Below are positions 2,981 through 28,404 of a DNA stretch of 28,404 nucleotides, one piece after another. Both the position numbers and the translations under genes were made by a program. The notes beneath the pieces were generated by a model. It worked only from the letters and a program-made list of their open reading frames with translations. It had not been told where the DNA came from and ran no database searches. The stretch comes from a virus: positions 1-28,404 of IMG/VR virus record IMGVR_UViG_3300028820_000052; one strand, given 5' to 3'. Numbering within the stretch: the first letter of the stretch is position 1; each line of letters begins with the position of its first letter.

Positions 2981-3934
2981 CTACGCCGGCGTCATGACAT
3001 TCTGGAGCAGTGCGCCTGCGGGCGGCGCGATGATATGGATGCCCCACATCCAGTCCACTTCAATCCATGTCGCGTTGTCGCGCCACGGCTCGACATAAGT
3101 GCGCACATTGCGCGGACGGGATTCGAAAGTGACGCCGTAAGTGATTTTGCGCACGCCGGGCGTGTCCACATACCCAATCCAGACATTATTGCCCCAGACT
3201 TCTTGGAGCTGTGTGGTGGCGCGCGGGTCAAGCGAGTACGCCCCGACGGGTGACGACGGCGCACGCAGCGACTGCGCCTCAATGACCCGTAGACCCCACA
3301 GTGGGTTCGGCAGACCCGATTGCGTCAAGTCCGTGACATACTTGCGCTCCTCTTTGATTTCCTCGATGAGCAGCATGCGGGACGCTATCGTCGCGGGAAC
3401 AACCAGCACATTCGGCACACGCCCCGTCATGCGGAAGATGGCGTTCTTGGCGAGCGTGATGTCCGTCTTCGGCGAGCATGTGAGATAGTTGTCCCACGCA
3501 TTGTTCAGGTTCTGCACATACCCGTTGTTCGCGGGGTCGCTGATGTACCGCGCGGCGGCAATCTCCCAGTTGAGCAGCAACATCTCCGTCAGATAGTTGG
3601 TCGTGTCCACCTCGAGGTCTATCGCGTTGTCGACATTCTCGCGCATGCGCGGCGTAATCATCGCGCGGAGCGAGTGTTGCTCCGTGCGATACCATTCGAG
3701 CCGCCAGCCCCACGACGCCTCACGCGCGATTTCGCCGTCTTGACGCGCGTCGTCGATGTGGACGAAGTTCGAGAGGTCGTAGACCGGGTAGAGGTCGGAC
3801 TCTTTCTTGACGGGTAGCGTCGGAAACACCACCGGGGCAACAAGCCCCGGCTGAGAATACTTGAGACTGATATTCGTGAGTATCTGGTCGTAATGCAGAC
3901 CAAAACTCGCGTTTCCACCAGTAGTCTTCGGCAT
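2981..3934 (-). CDS. Major capsid protein
   Basis: This encodes 317 residues from an ATG preceded by AAGGAGGGGG, one of the strongest ribosome binding sites in the window and fitting for an abundant protein. The N-terminus has the layout typical of HK97-fold coat proteins of this type: a short start, then APVVFPTLPVKKESDLYPVYD, then a loop rich in Arg and Glu. The middle holds long helices (about 100-150) and the C-terminus has the TYGVTFESRPRNVRTYVEPWRD and WGIHIIAPPAG segments. Order after protease and decoration protein, and before a connector, agrees. Length is normal for the fold when the protease/scaffold is a separate gene. Relation to any named phage coat protein cannot be judged here. 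Confidence 0.85.
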   Translation of the reverse strand: MPKTTGGNASFGLHYDQILTNISLKYSQPGLVAPVVFPTLPVKKESDLYPVYDLSNFVHIDDARQDGEIAREASWGWRLEWYRTEQHSLRAMITPRMRENVDNAIDLEVDTTNYLTEMLLLNWEIAAARYISDPANNGYVQNLNNAWDNYLTCSPKTDITLAKNAIFRMTGRVPNVLVVPATIASRMLLIEEIKEERKYVTDLTQSGLPNPLWGLRVIEAQSLRAPSSPVGAYSLDPRATTQLQEVWGNNVWIGYVDTPGVRKITYGVTFESRPRNVRTYVEPWRDNATWIEVDWMWGIHIIAPPAGALLQNVMTPA

Positions 3935-3959
3935 TTTCCCCCTCCTTCACAAAGTGCGG

Positions 3960-4616
3960 TTAGTAGACCCGCTGTGGCGGCGTCAACCGCACGGAAATCA
4001 ACCGCAGGTCATTGTCGTTGGTCGTATCCGTCCCTTGAAGCGCGATCCCGAAGGTGTACGAGAATGCGCTCGGGGAGAAAGTGATCGCTCCGCGGCGCTG
4101 GTTCACCACGCGCAACGGCAGAACCCGCGCAGCGACGAACGCGACGGCGCGTCCCCAGTACGGGTGTACCAGCGGGCGCAGTTCGGGCACATTTCTAAAG
4201 AGCGGATGCATCGTGTCGAGAATGAACTTGCGGTCTACGGCGTTTGTTGACTTGTACGCCAACACGAGTTCGTCGCCCGCTTTCACATCACCGCCGACAA
4301 TCAACCGCGTTACCCCTTCGGTCATCACGGTCACTTGCTGCCCGTGAATCGCGATGCCTTGCGTCACGCCGATAATCGGTAGACGGCACGCGGAGACGAC
4401 ATTTTGACCACTACCCCCGTTTGACCAGAACGCGGAGTCGTCGTGCTTCGGCATCGTCACCGCTTGATGCGCCCCGAAAATCGGGTCGCTGGACGGCACA
4501 TCGCCCGTCCAAAGCACAACGGGCACAAACGGCGCGACGGGGTTCTTAGCGGTATCGTCATAGTCCCGCCAGACATAAGTCTCCGTGCGACCGAGCTTGC
4601 TGTACGCTGTGAACAT
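3960..4616 (-). CDS. Capsid decoration/stabilisation-like protein
   Basis: This encodes 218 residues. The start at 4616 has AGGAGGG upstream, lying across the end of the protease gene. The middle part (about 95-125) contains a beta-rich stretch, GIAIHGQQVTVMTEGVTRLI then GGDVKAGDELVLAYKST, which resembles small beta-tulip decoration proteins that sit on capsid hexamers. The gene sits between the protease/scaffold and the major capsid gene, the common position for such proteins. It is longer than typical decoration proteins (about 110-130 aa), with an N-terminal extension and a C-terminal beta-rich domain, so it may carry an additional surface domain. Confidence 0.6.
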   Translation of the reverse strand: MFTAYSKLGRTETYVWRDYDDTAKNPVAPFVPVVLWTGDVPSSDPIFGAHQAVTMPKHDDSAFWSNGGSGQNVVSACRLPIIGVTQGIAIHGQQVTVMTEGVTRLIVGGDVKAGDELVLAYKSTNAVDRKFILDTMHPLFRNVPELRPLVHPYWGRAVAFVAARVLPLRVVNQRRGAITFSPSAFSYTFGIALQGTDTTNDNDLRLISVRLTPPQRVY

Positions 4617-4619
4617 ATC

Positions 4620-5813
4620 TTAGTCCCTCCTTAATCCAGAAATGCGCAGTTCCCGCGCAGCGCGCTTGATGGCTTCGCTGTACGGGATGTTCTCGTTCCG
4701 TGCGATTTGCTCTGCACGGTTCTGCAATATCTGCAACCGTTGCGAATCGTTGGTGATGACACTGGTGCGCGTGGGCACTTCGTAGCCCATTTGCGAACGC
4801 GCCATCTGCCGTGTCCACTGGTTCGTCGCGGCAATTTCATTCAGCAAAATCTGCACCAGTTCCACGGGCTGGAGTTGATAGTCATCACCCACATTCTCGC
4901 CCAGAGCCAGCACATAATGCGCGTCGTCGCGCAGATAGTCTAACTCGGACAGCGTGACGGTCGCGCCTTCCAACGCGCGAACTAACGCCCGTGCGGTCTG
5001 CAACACGGCGGGCGGCACGCGGTCCGCGTATTCGCTCAGCCACGCCTCACGCGCACTCTCGCGTTGCATCTCCAGCAGGTGCTGAAGTTCCTGCTCCAAC
5101 TCCTCTACACGCGACGCGCGAGACAACAAATCGGTGAACTCTTCTTCCGTGAGTTCAATGACAGCGGTTTCCCCCTCCGACAAGTTCAACCCCAGCGCAC
5201 TGTTCGTTCCATCGGCGTTCCCATCCGTCTCTCCCTCATCGCGCGAACGGAAATTGAAACGCACGGGGGGAAGCAGATGGGGAACCGTGTTTTTCGCCTG
5301 CTCCATAGTGTCCTCCTCATCGTTTGCGAATTCGGAAAGATTCAGTGGGGCAATATCCTGCATGTTCTTGATGTATGGGCGGTTCGTCAACGCAATCCCG
5401 CGCAACACATTCATCCGCTGTCGGTATTCCGGATGCATGTAGCCCAGCGCGAGTTCCGCGCTGGCGAAACGCAACCGTTTCCCGTCCACCAGTTCCTTGA
5501 CCCGCGGGTCAACGATTTCGACCGTCGCGATGAGTGAATCCCCGCGCTGTTCCAAGTCGACGACCCAACCCGCGGCGTCTGTGGAATCGTCGGCATGGTT
5601 CAAATTCACGGGGAGTTCACGCCCCATCACGCCGCTTTTGTAGTGGTCGACAATCTCGCGCAGCATGCGGTCGTCAACGACCAGTTTGCCCCCGGGCGCG
5701 CGCGGATGCAACCATTCGCCCCGACGCAACACCTCCACGCGGTAGCGATTGGACGACTTGCCTTGACAACCGCACCCCCCACGACGGATCTCGGACAGAA
5801 AGTACGAGACCAT
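4620..5813 (-). CDS. Mu I-like head maturation protease with C-terminal scaffold
   Basis: This encodes 397 residues if started at the ATG at 5813, which has AGGGG eight bases upstream. A longer frame back to a GTG at 5879 is rejected because it would run through a hairpin and T-tract. The N-terminal domain matches Mu-like I proteases: VNLNHADDSTDAAGWVVDLE near residues 69-88 with probable catalytic His73, FASAELALGY near 116-125 with probable catalytic Ser118, and IALTNRPYIKN near 140-150. A Glu-rich coiled coil (roughly 225-255) and a helical C-terminus look like the scaffold part that the protease removes during head maturation. It is followed at once by the decoration and major capsid genes. 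A cysteine cluster near the N-terminus (CGCQG) is unusual. Confidence 0.85.
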   Translation of the reverse strand: MVSYFLSEIRRGGCGCQGKSSNRYRVEVLRRGEWLHPRAPGGKLVVDDRMLREIVDHYKSGVMGRELPVNLNHADDSTDAAGWVVDLEQRGDSLIATVEIVDPRVKELVDGKRLRFASAELALGYMHPEYRQRMNVLRGIALTNRPYIKNMQDIAPLNLSEFANDEEDTMEQAKNTVPHLLPPVRFNFRSRDEGETDGNADGTNSALGLNLSEGETAVIELTEEEFTDLLSRASRVEELEQELQHLLEMQRESAREAWLSEYADRVPPAVLQTARALVRALEGATVTLSELDYLRDDAHYVLALGENVGDDYQLQPVELVQILLNEIAATNQWTRQMARSQMGYEVPTRTSVITNDSQRLQILQNRAEQIARNENIPYSEAIKRAARELRISGLRRD

Positions 5814-26478: not shown

Positions 26479-26508
26479 TTGACAAAACGGTTGCGGATGT
26501 GGTATAAT
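26479..26508 (+). promoter_or_regulatory. Consensus promoter TTGACA-N18-TATAAT, start-adjacent
   Basis: TTGACA lies at 26479-26484 and TATAAT at 26503-26508, with an 18-bp spacer ending in ATGTGG (TGn extended -10). GGAGGC and then the ATG at 26515 follow directly, so the transcription start is expected at or beside the start codon and the GGAGG would not be transcribed. Confidence 0.9.
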
Positions 26509-26514
26509 GGAGGC

Positions 26515-27147
26515 ATGAGAACCGTTTCACAGGTCGACAACCGCGTGTTGCATGCGATTGGTGTATCCGATGAGAACGCCGCGTGCGAGTGGTTGATGGA
26601 TGAGACAGCCGCGCGCGGTGTTGTCACGCTTGTCGTGCAGGAGACGAAGAATGTGATGGATGCGTTGTACGGCTCTCTCGAATACGCCGTGCGTCTCGCC
26701 ACCGGCGTTGCCAAGAAAATCCAACTGGGCGAAACGGGGAGAACCGTCGAACTGCGGGTCGCGCGCCCGTGCCGCGTCGTATGCGGTATCCCTATGAACG
26801 AACCCGAAGATCTTCTCGCGTGTGGGATGCTCGCAATGGGAGCGACAGAAGACATCGAGGGTTCTATGGAACTCCTCGGAACGAATCTCTCGTTCCGTGC
26901 GTGTCGCACCAAACGCGATCTGGAGAGAATGGTTGCTCACGCGCGGAAATACGGCGCAGACGCTCTCGTGGTCATTATGCCTGCACTTGCCGAAATCAAG
27001 TTTATACAACTTATCGAACGGCTCGACGCGGTCGCGCAAGAAATGAACGCGGCGGTTGTTGTCGTCGAGTCGGTCGGGACCGATGCGTTCGGTGAGATGT
27101 TGCGGCGTCTAGGGAGTAACCAATGCGTGGTTTTGAAGCCGCAGTAG
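26515..27147 (+). CDS. Unknown 210-aa protein under a perfect promoter
   Basis: This starts at the ATG at 26515, six bases after the TATAAT. The product has alternating strands and helices: VVTLVVQETKNVMDALYGSL, CRVVCGIPMNEPEDLLACGM and ADALVVIMPALAEIKFIQLI, with VVVVESVG near the end. The arrangement recalls a RecA-like core, with a Walker B-like hydrophobic strand near 168-175, but there is no Walker A and the usual Asp is replaced. A diverged RecA/DnaB-like protein or an unrelated alpha/beta fold are both possible. It forms an operon with the overlapping HEAT-repeat gene. Confidence 0.75.
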   Translation: MRTVSQVDNRVLHAIGVSDENAACEWLMDETAARGVVTLVVQETKNVMDALYGSLEYAVRLATGVAKKIQLGETGRTVELRVARPCRVVCGIPMNEPEDLLACGMLAMGATEDIEGSMELLGTNLSFRACRTKRDLERMVAHARKYGADALVVIMPALAEIKFIQLIERLDAVAQEMNAAVVVVESVGTDAFGEMLRRLGSNQCVVLKPQ

Positions 27148-27968
27148 AGATCCCGTTCACGCCGAAATCGCCCCATCTGGTGCGGGTGTTCCCGCACGAA
27201 TGGGACGAATACTCTCTGGAGCGGGTGCGCGTGCATGAGAGTGTATCGGACGAGGAAATCCGCCGCGCACTCGCGTCGCACATCGAGCTTCGCCGCGCGC
27301 TTGCGCACAACGCGCATGCGCAGCGCGATGTGGCGCGTCTTATCGCCATGGTGCAGTGGCAGGGGCACTATGGCGAGGGAAGCGAAGACGCTTTGCAGTG
27401 GCTCCGCGACGGCTACACGCGCGAGGAACGGCTCGCGCCACTGCGCCGCGCGCTGGAACACGAAGCAGCGCACATCCGTCGCGCAGCGTGTCTGGTCGCG
27501 TCGCGTCTGCACGAAGAAGCCGTGCTGGACGCTCTGATAGCGACGGCACGGGACGACACGGATGATACCGTCGCAGTAACGGCTGTCACCGCGCTGAGCG
27601 CGATGCCGTGCGATGCGTCGTTCAGAGGGATGTTGAGCGTGGCGATGAACCCGCGACGGCACTGGACGGCGCGTGTGGACGCCGCATACATGCTGGGTCA
27701 AACGCGCCGCGCGGACGCCATCCCGTATCTAATAGAAATCGCGGCTCAGTGCAATTGCGAGCGTACCGCGGAGTGCGCGCGAGAGATGTTCCTTCACCTC
27801 CAACAGATGGCGCAGCCCCCATGGTGCCGATTCGGTGAACCCGAACCGCGTTCCATCCGTTCTGCCGACCGACCGAACAACCGTCCCGTGGGGCGACCGA
27901 TCCCGCACAACCGACGCTGGATTGAGAACCAGCGCGGGGTTGACACAGGCGGTATATGTGGGGTATAA
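27123..27968 (+). CDS. HEAT-repeat protein
   Basis: This encodes 281 residues from an ATG with GGGAG six bases upstream, overlapping the previous gene by 25 bp. Residues about 105-215 show repeating paired helices of the HEAT type (LRRALEHEAAHIRRAACLVA, LDALIATARDDTDDTVAVTA, ARVDAAYMLGQTRRADAIPY). Such repeats form curved helical arrays that bind proteins or nucleic acids. The N-terminal 90 residues are charged and the C-terminal 60 are Arg/Pro/Asn-rich and probably disordered. The stop codon TAA lies inside the TATAAT of the next promoter. Its role with the 210-aa protein is unknown. Confidence 0.72.
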   Translation: MRGFEAAVEIPFTPKSPHLVRVFPHEWDEYSLERVRVHESVSDEEIRRALASHIELRRALAHNAHAQRDVARLIAMVQWQGHYGEGSEDALQWLRDGYTREERLAPLRRALEHEAAHIRRAACLVASRLHEEAVLDALIATARDDTDDTVAVTAVTALSAMPCDASFRGMLSVAMNPRRHWTARVDAAYMLGQTRRADAIPYLIEIAAQCNCERTAECAREMFLHLQQMAQPPWCRFGEPEPRSIRSADRPNNRPVGRPIPHNRRWIENQRGVDTGGICGV

Positions 27969-27969
27969 T
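27940..27969 (+). promoter_or_regulatory. Consensus promoter TTGACA-N18-TATAAT for the RNA
   Basis: TTGACA lies at 27940-27945 and TATAAT at 27964-27969 with an 18-bp spacer that ends in GTGGGG. No convincing reading frame follows. The expected transcription start, near 27976, coincides with the first base of a 9-bp hairpin. Confidence 0.88.
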
Positions 27970-27975
27970 GCATAT

Positions 27976-28165
27976 GGCTTGAACACTGTTCGAGCCGTAG
28001 GGGTGGGTCGCCCCGAACTGACGCCTCTGGAGAGAGAGACCGCTGCACGGATATTGGGGAGCAATCCCTATATCCGCGTAAGTTTCCTCGACGAAGGAGG
28101 AAGCCTGTCCTCAAGGGACAGGAGGAGACCACAACCGGCGCTGGCTCGCGAACCAGTGACGGGGA
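27976..28165 (+). ncRNA. Probable structured non-coding RNA
   Basis: Directly after a perfect promoter, six hairpins can be read in about 185 bases. They are GGCTTGAAC/GTTCGAGCC with a 3-nt loop (27976-27996), GGGG/CCCC (28000-28014), CGGATAT/ATATCCG with an inner GGGG/TCCC and loop AGCAA (28048-28076), TTTCCTC/GAGGAAG (28083-28103), CCTGTCC/GGACAGG with loop TCAAG (28104-28122) and CGCTGG/CCAGTG (28139-28158). Stems are nearly perfect and closely spaced. No frame of quality begins after the promoter: the first ATG is followed by a stop after two codons. It is not a tRNA, rRNA or riboswitch that I recognise. The 3' end is not clear, as no T-tract follows. The end stated is where the convergent minus-strand gene begins. 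Confidence 0.62.
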
Positions 28166-28168
28166 AGG

Positions 28169-28404
28169 TCATAGCGTCAGGACTGTCGTCCAGTTCACGC
28201 CGTCTTCACTGGATAAGACGCGATAGTTCTCGCCCTCGCGCACCACGAGATAGTAGGCGTGCTGGATGAGCGCGAGCGTCGCATCGAGCGGAACGCCGCG
28301 CAGTGGCGTGCCCCCGTCCCGCACGCAGGGGACTGCGGGTTCGAAACTGATGCCCCAATCCTGAGAGACGCGCGTGAAGATGTCGTCGTCGTCGCCCGCG
28401 TTGT
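28169..28404 (-). CDS. C-terminus of a probable tail or adhesin protein
   Basis: An open frame enters from the right edge and stops at 28169-28171, giving the last 77 residues. It holds VSQDWGISFEPAVP and YRVLSSEDGVNWTTVLTL, which look like BNR/sialidase-type repeats (S-x-D-G-x-x-W) found in beta-propellers and in tail fibres or surface proteins. The start and N-terminal part lie outside the window. A host-binding role is inferred only from that pattern. Its 3' end faces the structured RNA. Confidence 0.6.
   Translation of the reverse strand, partial: NAGDDDDIFTRVSQDWGISFEPAVPCVRDGGTPLRGVPLDATLALIQHAYYLVVREGENYRVLSSEDGVNWTTVLTL

Follow-up and report, generated by a model that had tools for sequence, protein, structure and literature searches.

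The RNA encoded near the right-hand end of a 28,404-base linear phage fragment (the whole of IMG/VR record IMGVR_UViG_3300028820_000052, here called the window) is, as read from its sequence, an omegaRNA (reRNA) of full length; RNAs of this family guide the IS200/IS605 protein TnpB. The locus combines homology to that family, a full-length scaffold, a conserved fold with its pseudoknot, and a promoter, and neither a tnpB gene nor a transposon left end adjoins it. It is probably a stand-alone, phage-borne omegaRNA, expressed from its own promoter and loading onto TnpB in trans.

TnpB, the ancestor of CRISPR-Cas12, uses a guide of about 16 nucleotides, and the tnpB transcript normally includes the guide RNA. 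Karvelis et al. (PMC8612924) and PMC10097598 describe TnpB as an RNA-guided DNA endonuclease, with its guide located after the omegaRNA/reRNA scaffold and with a requirement for a TAM beside the target.

Identification of the RNA

A reading frame remains open through the entire RNA, from 27835 to 28269, which qualifies the statement in the initial annotation that no usable frame exists; the codon score of that frame (-0.14 per codon, versus 0.21 +/- 0.11 in real genes) is that of non-coding DNA. Used as a tblastn query, the frame matched the C-terminus of the IS605 'putative transposase' (TnpB) of Thermus phage phiLo (62% over 37 amino acids) and that of a broken tnpB on another phage contig (L012; 58%). 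Both proteins contain the TnpB zinc-ribbon domain (Pfam PF07282), and solved TnpB structures, 8bf8, 8ex9 and 8exa among them, match the phiLo protein. It was this resemblance of the open frame to the C-terminus of TnpB that led to the identification as an omegaRNA: the homologous part coincides with the 3' end of tnpB, which is the site of the omegaRNA, and the alignment at the DNA level spans the whole region.

A scan with the three C-termini located 16 loci in genomes, mostly of thermophiles (among them Coprothermobacter, Caldanaerobacter, Aquificota and Clostridia), and three viral loci. A covariance model constructed from 11 of these omegaRNAs, with the window excluded, has a sole match in the window, at 27971-28132, which covers model positions 1-164 of 164 with 135.1 bits and E 2e-34 (the E-values of this search are rough, the bit score is not). 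The RNA of the window shares 64-80% identity with the others over 135 nucleotides, and is closest to that of Coprothermobacter platensis (L019).

The compensatory double changes for which the initial annotation had proposed a covariance analysis are present. In an alignment of 16 omegaRNAs, scored against the structure including the pseudoknot, 92.8% of cells are paired, 19 pairs are double-changed and the covariation score is 0.380; for shuffled alignments the figures are 81.0%, 9.3 +/- 1.7 pairs and 0.159, and not one of 500 comes up to those observed. When the structure is slid along the alignment, 33-54% of cells are paired, with 4-7 double-changed pairs and a score of at most 0.113, a contrast that is inflated by the partial derivation of the structure from the same 16 sequences, which does not explain the double changes. 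Such changes affect three of the four pseudoknot pairs and two of the four pairs of the core helix (which is 100% paired across the 16 sequences), and all four pairs of helix 1 (H2 in Table 1) covary. The pseudoknot of the relatives is mostly GACC/GGUC, with GAUC/GAUC in L019, GACA/UGUC in L016 and GGCC/GGCC in L030; the window has GGUC/GACC, a double compensation at two positions.

A structured phage non-coding RNA behind a strong promoter, as first annotated, is thus upheld (its non-coding nature being very probable), while the novelty of its class is not. That it should belong to a wholly new class of structured RNA is practically ruled out by the full-length match to the TnpB omegaRNA model and the covariation, pseudoknot included, even though Rfam offers no match at gathering or permissive thresholds, down to E <= 5. 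This silence means that no Rfam model reaches this omegaRNA subfamily, rather than novelty. The earlier failure to match a tRNA, tmRNA, 6S RNA or riboswitch agrees with the Rfam result and with the absence of a tRNA or tmRNA from the window RNA according to ARAGORN.

A protein-coding gene, starting at TTG 27979 or further upstream, would account for the open frame but is very improbable: besides the codon score, its similarity to proteins is restricted to the stretch where omegaRNA and tnpB overlap, it has no Pfam match, and it lacks a stop where TnpB genes end, which fits an absent coding constraint. Third-position changes are in excess (0.50 versus 0.39 in tnpB-linked pairs), a figure that is uninformative on the loss of that constraint.

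Fold and anatomy

The region 27970-28190 folds with -105.3 kcal/mol, compared with -78.7 +/- 4.8 for shuffled sequences (z -5.55), and in a scan of the window by 200-nucleotide tiles three of the 566 tiles rank above the one at 27901 (+). For 27973-28182 the z-score is -6.7 on the + strand and -3.9 on the - strand; because the + strand folds better, an RNA from that strand is favoured. The comparison with shuffled controls that had been suggested at the outset therefore bears out the structure, at z -5.6 to -6.7. Searches of the region revealed no terminator, and a convergent terminator or a DNA origin was rejected on that ground and on the strand difference.

Table 1. Features of the omegaRNA locus and its neighbours (window coordinates).
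Feature	Position	Strand	Remarks
HEAT-repeat protein gene	27123-27968	+	Upstream neighbour; occupies the place of tnpB in relatives
Upstream copy of 34-bp repeat, with hairpin	27906-27939	+	Abuts promoter, inside 3' end of HEAT-repeat gene
Promoter TTGACA-N18-TATAAT, 12/12	27940-27969	+	Two further perfect N18 promoters of this class in the window
H1, 5' hairpin, 9 bp, loop ACU (GGCUUGAAC-ACU-GUUCGAGCC)	27976-27996	+	Aligned with 5' hairpins of tnpB-linked omegaRNAs
H2, hairpin, GGGG/CCCC	28000-28014	+	Loop GGUC (28006-28009) is 5' half of pseudoknot
Core helix, CCUC (28024-28027) / GAGG (28097-28100)	28024-28100	+	Around long arm
H3, long arm, GCAA tetraloop (28061-28064)	28044-28081	+	Both-side changes in 5 of 13 pairs
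Right-end-type hairpin, CCUGUCC/GGGACAGG	28104-28122	+	Counterpart of transposon right-end hairpin in relatives
Scaffold end: GACC (28127-28130, 3' half of pseudoknot) + AC	28127-28132	+	
Predicted guide, first 16-20 nt past scaffold (AACCGGCGCUGGCUCGCGAA)	28133-28152	+	Begins AACCGGCGCUGGCUCG
Imperfect hairpin of guide and following bases	28135-28162	+	Within 34-bp imperfect direct repeat (79%)
ORF, incomplete at contig end	28169-28402	-	Convergent neighbour of RNA

The stem and internal loop annotated earlier at 28048-28076 are real and form part of H3; the loop belongs to the GNRA tetraloops (GCAA). In the pseudoknot, the H2 loop pairs with the bases immediately before the guide. The start of the guide could be fixed at 28133 because conservation among the relatives ends at ...CAC; beyond this point their sequences vary, as a guide directly 3' of the scaffold would. 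A further predicted closing stem, CUGACGC/GCGUCAG (28018-28024 with 28176-28182), lies beyond the omegaRNA and was treated as a chance pairing.

Promoter and flanking repeat

The promoter described initially is confirmed at all 12 consensus positions, and its expected start, 27976, seven bases past TATAAT, is indeed the opening base of the 9-bp hairpin H1. The TAA stop codon of the HEAT-repeat gene falls inside TATAAT, and the promoter overlaps the final codons of that gene. Perfect TTGACA-N18-TATAAT promoters occur three times in the window (19841-19812 on the - strand, 26479-26508 and 27940-27969 on the + strand) and not once in 100 dinucleotide shuffles of it. The first two both carry TGTGGTATAAT, and their genes begin some 7 to 10 bases past TATAAT; at 26479 the ATG lies 7 bases past it, as in a leaderless mRNA. 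These two promoters suggest mRNAs with little or no leader and a shared type of host promoter. A descent of the window promoter from those of bacterial stand-alone omegaRNAs was considered and set aside, the similarity being marginal (equalled in 5 of 500 and 34 of 500 shuffles).

The cassette of promoter and omegaRNA is exactly bracketed by two imperfect direct repeats of 34 bp (27906-27939 and 28130-28163), of which the right-hand copy covers the guide. The two copies can fold into the same hairpin and differ mainly outside its stem. The repeat may be a duplication of the end of the HEAT gene (HNRRWIENQ / HNRRWLANQ-stop), a pair of insulating hairpins, or a trace of the arrival of the cassette. 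Pairing of the guide with downstream bases would hinder targeting unless the RNA is trimmed.

A locus without tnpB or a left end

The window also encodes a Mu-type portal, a head protease, a major head protein and a sigma-like factor. TnpB similarity across the window is confined to the tail that overlaps the omegaRNA, and no TnpB is found in the known related phage contigs, which cover about 3 kb beyond the left end of the window. An adjacent nuclease-dead TnpB homologue (TldR) is likewise missing within the contig; as the contig is a fragment, a tnpB gene could sit elsewhere in the phage. The left ends of the relatives read TTAC|GATC...CGGGAAAGCC-hairpin, from which the TAM is inferred to be TTAC. 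A left-end palindrome is absent from the window (scores of 15-17, against a shuffled mean of about 15), and the right-end hairpin is present; since the left end is missing, as it is in L017, the copy looks fixed in place.

The HEAT-repeat protein and the 26404 protein retrieved nothing from IMG/VR; the capsid protein retrieved four contigs of the same phage group, none of which extends to the RNA region; and a contig reached through a fourth window protein (L007) was a chance match only. Related contigs derive from the metagenomes IMG 3300043543, 3300043544 and 3300034696. No close homologue of the omegaRNA locus of the window was found in IMG/VR, a DNA pattern of the long arm had zero matches there, and a BLAST comparison of the region with phage and plasmid nucleotide sequences returned only chance matches of about 30 nucleotides.

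Related loci without tnpB

Among the distinct related loci with enough upstream sequence, roughly half have no upstream tnpB, and promoter-like boxes precede the tnpB-less omegaRNAs of L017, L022, L050, L054, L057 and L058. Three loci (L022, L057 and L062) consist of a left end, a TATAAT-like -10 box (TATAAA in L062), the omegaRNA and a right end, and all belong to one Coprothermobacter genome (UBA10526), which also carries a tnpB copy (L021). L050 has a left end, TGTGGTATAAT and the omegaRNA; L017 and L058 have TGTGGTATAAT and the omegaRNA with no recognised left end; L023 and L049 have a left end and an omegaRNA, with no clear promoter. Given these promoter-bearing relatives without tnpB, the window exemplifies an arrangement that recurs, in which an omegaRNA has a promoter to itself and no neighbouring TnpB gene.

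The promoter-bearing, tnpB-less omegaRNAs form families (L022:2865-3144, L057 and L062; and, in Clostridia MAGs, L050, L017, L058 and L068), most members of which are composed of a left end, a -10 box, the omegaRNA and a right end; they resemble selfish elements reduced to a guide. At L017:3157-3500, the guide of the stand-alone omegaRNA extends into the ribosome-binding site of an AbrB-like gene, which is followed by a PIN-like gene; judged by eye, the two are likely a toxin-antitoxin pair. A parS-like palindrome, TGTTCCACGTGGAACA (L022:3168-3183), lies 23 bases past the right end of the stand-alone omegaRNA element at that locus. In the TnpB proteins of L013, L016, L018, L019, L021, L024 and L031, the surroundings of the second acidic RuvC residue read QDD, QED or QDE rather than VEDL; motifs one and three are largely kept.

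Two other phage contigs carry tnpB-less omegaRNAs. In the first (L054:1500-1690, IMGVR_UViG_3300017461_000035), TTGACA-TATACT stands between a left-end-like hairpin and the omegaRNA, a right-end hairpin follows downstream, and the same contig contains the broken tnpB L012 as two fragments (3863-4603 and 4686-5126). In the second (L053:1527-1710, IMGVR_UViG_3300040935_000019), a shortened tnpB-less omegaRNA is followed by three direct repeats of GTGGGAGGAGGTCA, at 1599, 1639 and 1692 (spaced by 40 and 53 nucleotides), each with a different sequence after it; a short ORF and a recA-like gene come directly downstream. This is a putative CRISPR-like guide 'mini-array' of three units derived from an omegaRNA, and is possibly more novel than the window itself; its contig (G018) has a full tnpB elsewhere (L031).

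Guide and target searches

The inferred TAM and the predicted guide together give the expected target form TTAC-AACCGGCGCTGGCTCG. The 18-nucleotide guide has zero exact matches in IMG/VR, and 8 of 399 Bacillota genomes match it with at most one mismatch. Two of these matches are exact, both in what we take, from the recognisable motif in its translation, to be a clpC-like gene; another three, inexact, fall in genes presumed on the same basis to be clp-like (clpC/clpB). In the two genomes with exact matches, guide bases 28133-28150 correspond to the clpC codons for (K)PALARG. These sites are not proposed as targets: they have CTCA, TTAA or CTGA where TTAC is expected, and near matches are no scarcer for a control coding 18-mer taken from the HEAT gene (13 of 398 genomes, none exact). 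Autoregulation of its own promoter by the guide is not proposed either, the copy at 27909 having 4 mismatches in 18 and the flank CGCAC, which is no TAM. Among exact matches in IMG/VR and matches with at most one mismatch in the sampled Bacillota genomes, no guide target flanked by TTAC was found.

Possible roles of the phage omegaRNA

Transcription from its own promoter would begin at the 5' hairpin and yield a stand-alone omegaRNA of 27976 to about 28150, whose ready-made 5' end would need no trimming. TnpB, supplied in trans by the host or by the unsequenced part of the phage, would load this RNA and be directed to DNA by the guide from 28133. It most likely arose from an IS605 derivative lacking tnpB that lost its left end and then became fixed in the phage. 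The virus may thereby lend or feed a guide to TnpB made by its host. A guide role (in cutting or in binding) and a decoy role are both compatible with the data: the precise position of the guide and a scaffold predicted to be fit for binding favour the former, and the lack of a target found and the ability of the guide to fold with the bases that follow favour the latter.

Of the roles proposed initially, that of decoy or regulator may apply, and nothing was found in support of a packaging-linked RNA. As a decoy, the phage omegaRNA would lack a useful guide and would occupy a TnpB of the host, or a repressor derived from TnpB, as an RNA inhibitor resembling the Racrs, single CRISPR repeat units of viruses. 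The maintained scaffold and pseudoknot, the strong promoter, the self-folding guide, the failure to find a target in IMG/VR or in the sampled Bacillota genomes and the CRISPR precedent of virus-encoded Racrs (PMC11656645) all speak for this reading, which nonetheless appears unlikely: nothing indicates that this phage is restricted by TnpB, the self-folding guide may just be trimmed, and a target missing from sampled genomes is weak evidence.

It is about equally unlikely that the RNA is a functionless relic, a promoter-bearing, tnpB-less IS605 derivative (similar to a PATE or MITE) stranded in the phage. Thermophile genomes often contain elements composed of a left end, an omegaRNA and a right end (L022, L023, L049, L050 and L057), PATEs are known for IS605 (PMC7290912), and the left end has been lost in the window; however, the scaffold is full-length, the pseudoknot is uniquely compensated (a compensation that could predate capture), a perfect promoter is placed at the 5' hairpin, and the phage genome is compact.

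The third alternative, to which a similarly small chance is assigned, is that the RNA is the detached guide RNA of a TnpB or nuclease-dead TldR that the phage encodes elsewhere. The contig is incomplete, phage TldR-gRNA systems exist (PMC13418256), and phage contig G018 possesses both a tnpB and a separate tnpB-less omegaRNA with its mini-array; on the other hand, no TnpB is encoded in these 28.4 kb, nor in the approximately 3 kb past the left end seen in relatives. A stand-alone omegaRNA that loads onto TnpB in trans remains the preferred reading.

Should it be correct, the RNA would be the TnpB counterpart of the viral CRISPR mini-arrays and Racrs; from a phage that retains the guide RNA alone, intact and with a promoter of its own, it would follow that TnpB, like CRISPR, is exploited or inhibited by viruses. 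Guide RNAs would then also be seen to turn into independent genes, which the passage from transposon to CRISPR requires. The reading makes a concrete prediction, of a single promoter, RNA, guide and protein partner family. The broader proposal, that thermophile phages carry dedicated, promoter-driven omegaRNAs without TnpB and thereby commandeer or block host TnpB in trans, the guide part having been duplicated into a mini-array in at least one of them (L053), is put forward tentatively, as the less probable outcome but a real one.

Comparison with known systems

The RNA family is known, and so, as PATEs, are tnpB-less IS605 derivatives. With the TnpB omegaRNAs of Thermus phage phiLo, Coprothermobacter platensis and Aquificota, the RNA of the window shares the scaffold end to end, the helices, the 3' pseudoknot and the guide directly past the scaffold. 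In contrast to tnpB-linked omegaRNAs, it is not the 3' end of a tnpB gene, has its own perfect promoter at the 5' hairpin, lacks a left end and resides in a phage. Stand-alone (trans) omegaRNAs of IscB were reportedly described by Altae-Tran and colleagues in 2021; these likewise have no adjacent nuclease gene, but they belong to IscB rather than TnpB and to a bacterial chromosome rather than a phage.

PATEs and IS605-derived MITEs are tnpB-less and consist, like the window copy, of 3' tnpB sequence and a right end (one PATE keeps the last 58 nucleotides of tnpB with the right end; PMC7290912); several relatives also have promoter-like boxes. The window copy differs in having no left-end palindrome, and so by sequence is not a mobilizable PATE. 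The TldR-gRNA systems of prophages, in which a phage-borne TnpB-type guide regulates host genes, are likewise viral, but there the guide adjoins the TldR gene (PMC13418256), whereas no effector gene is adjacent to the RNA of the window. Searches of the openly available full-text literature gave no account of a phage-borne stand-alone TnpB omegaRNA with its own promoter. A parallel in viral strategy is that of the viral CRISPR mini-arrays and Racrs (PMC11656645), which provide precedents for both guide and decoy and in which the virus likewise has the RNA part alone, with the protein perhaps supplied by the host; those RNAs are CRISPR repeats of demonstrated function, and the window holds an omegaRNA known from its sequence.
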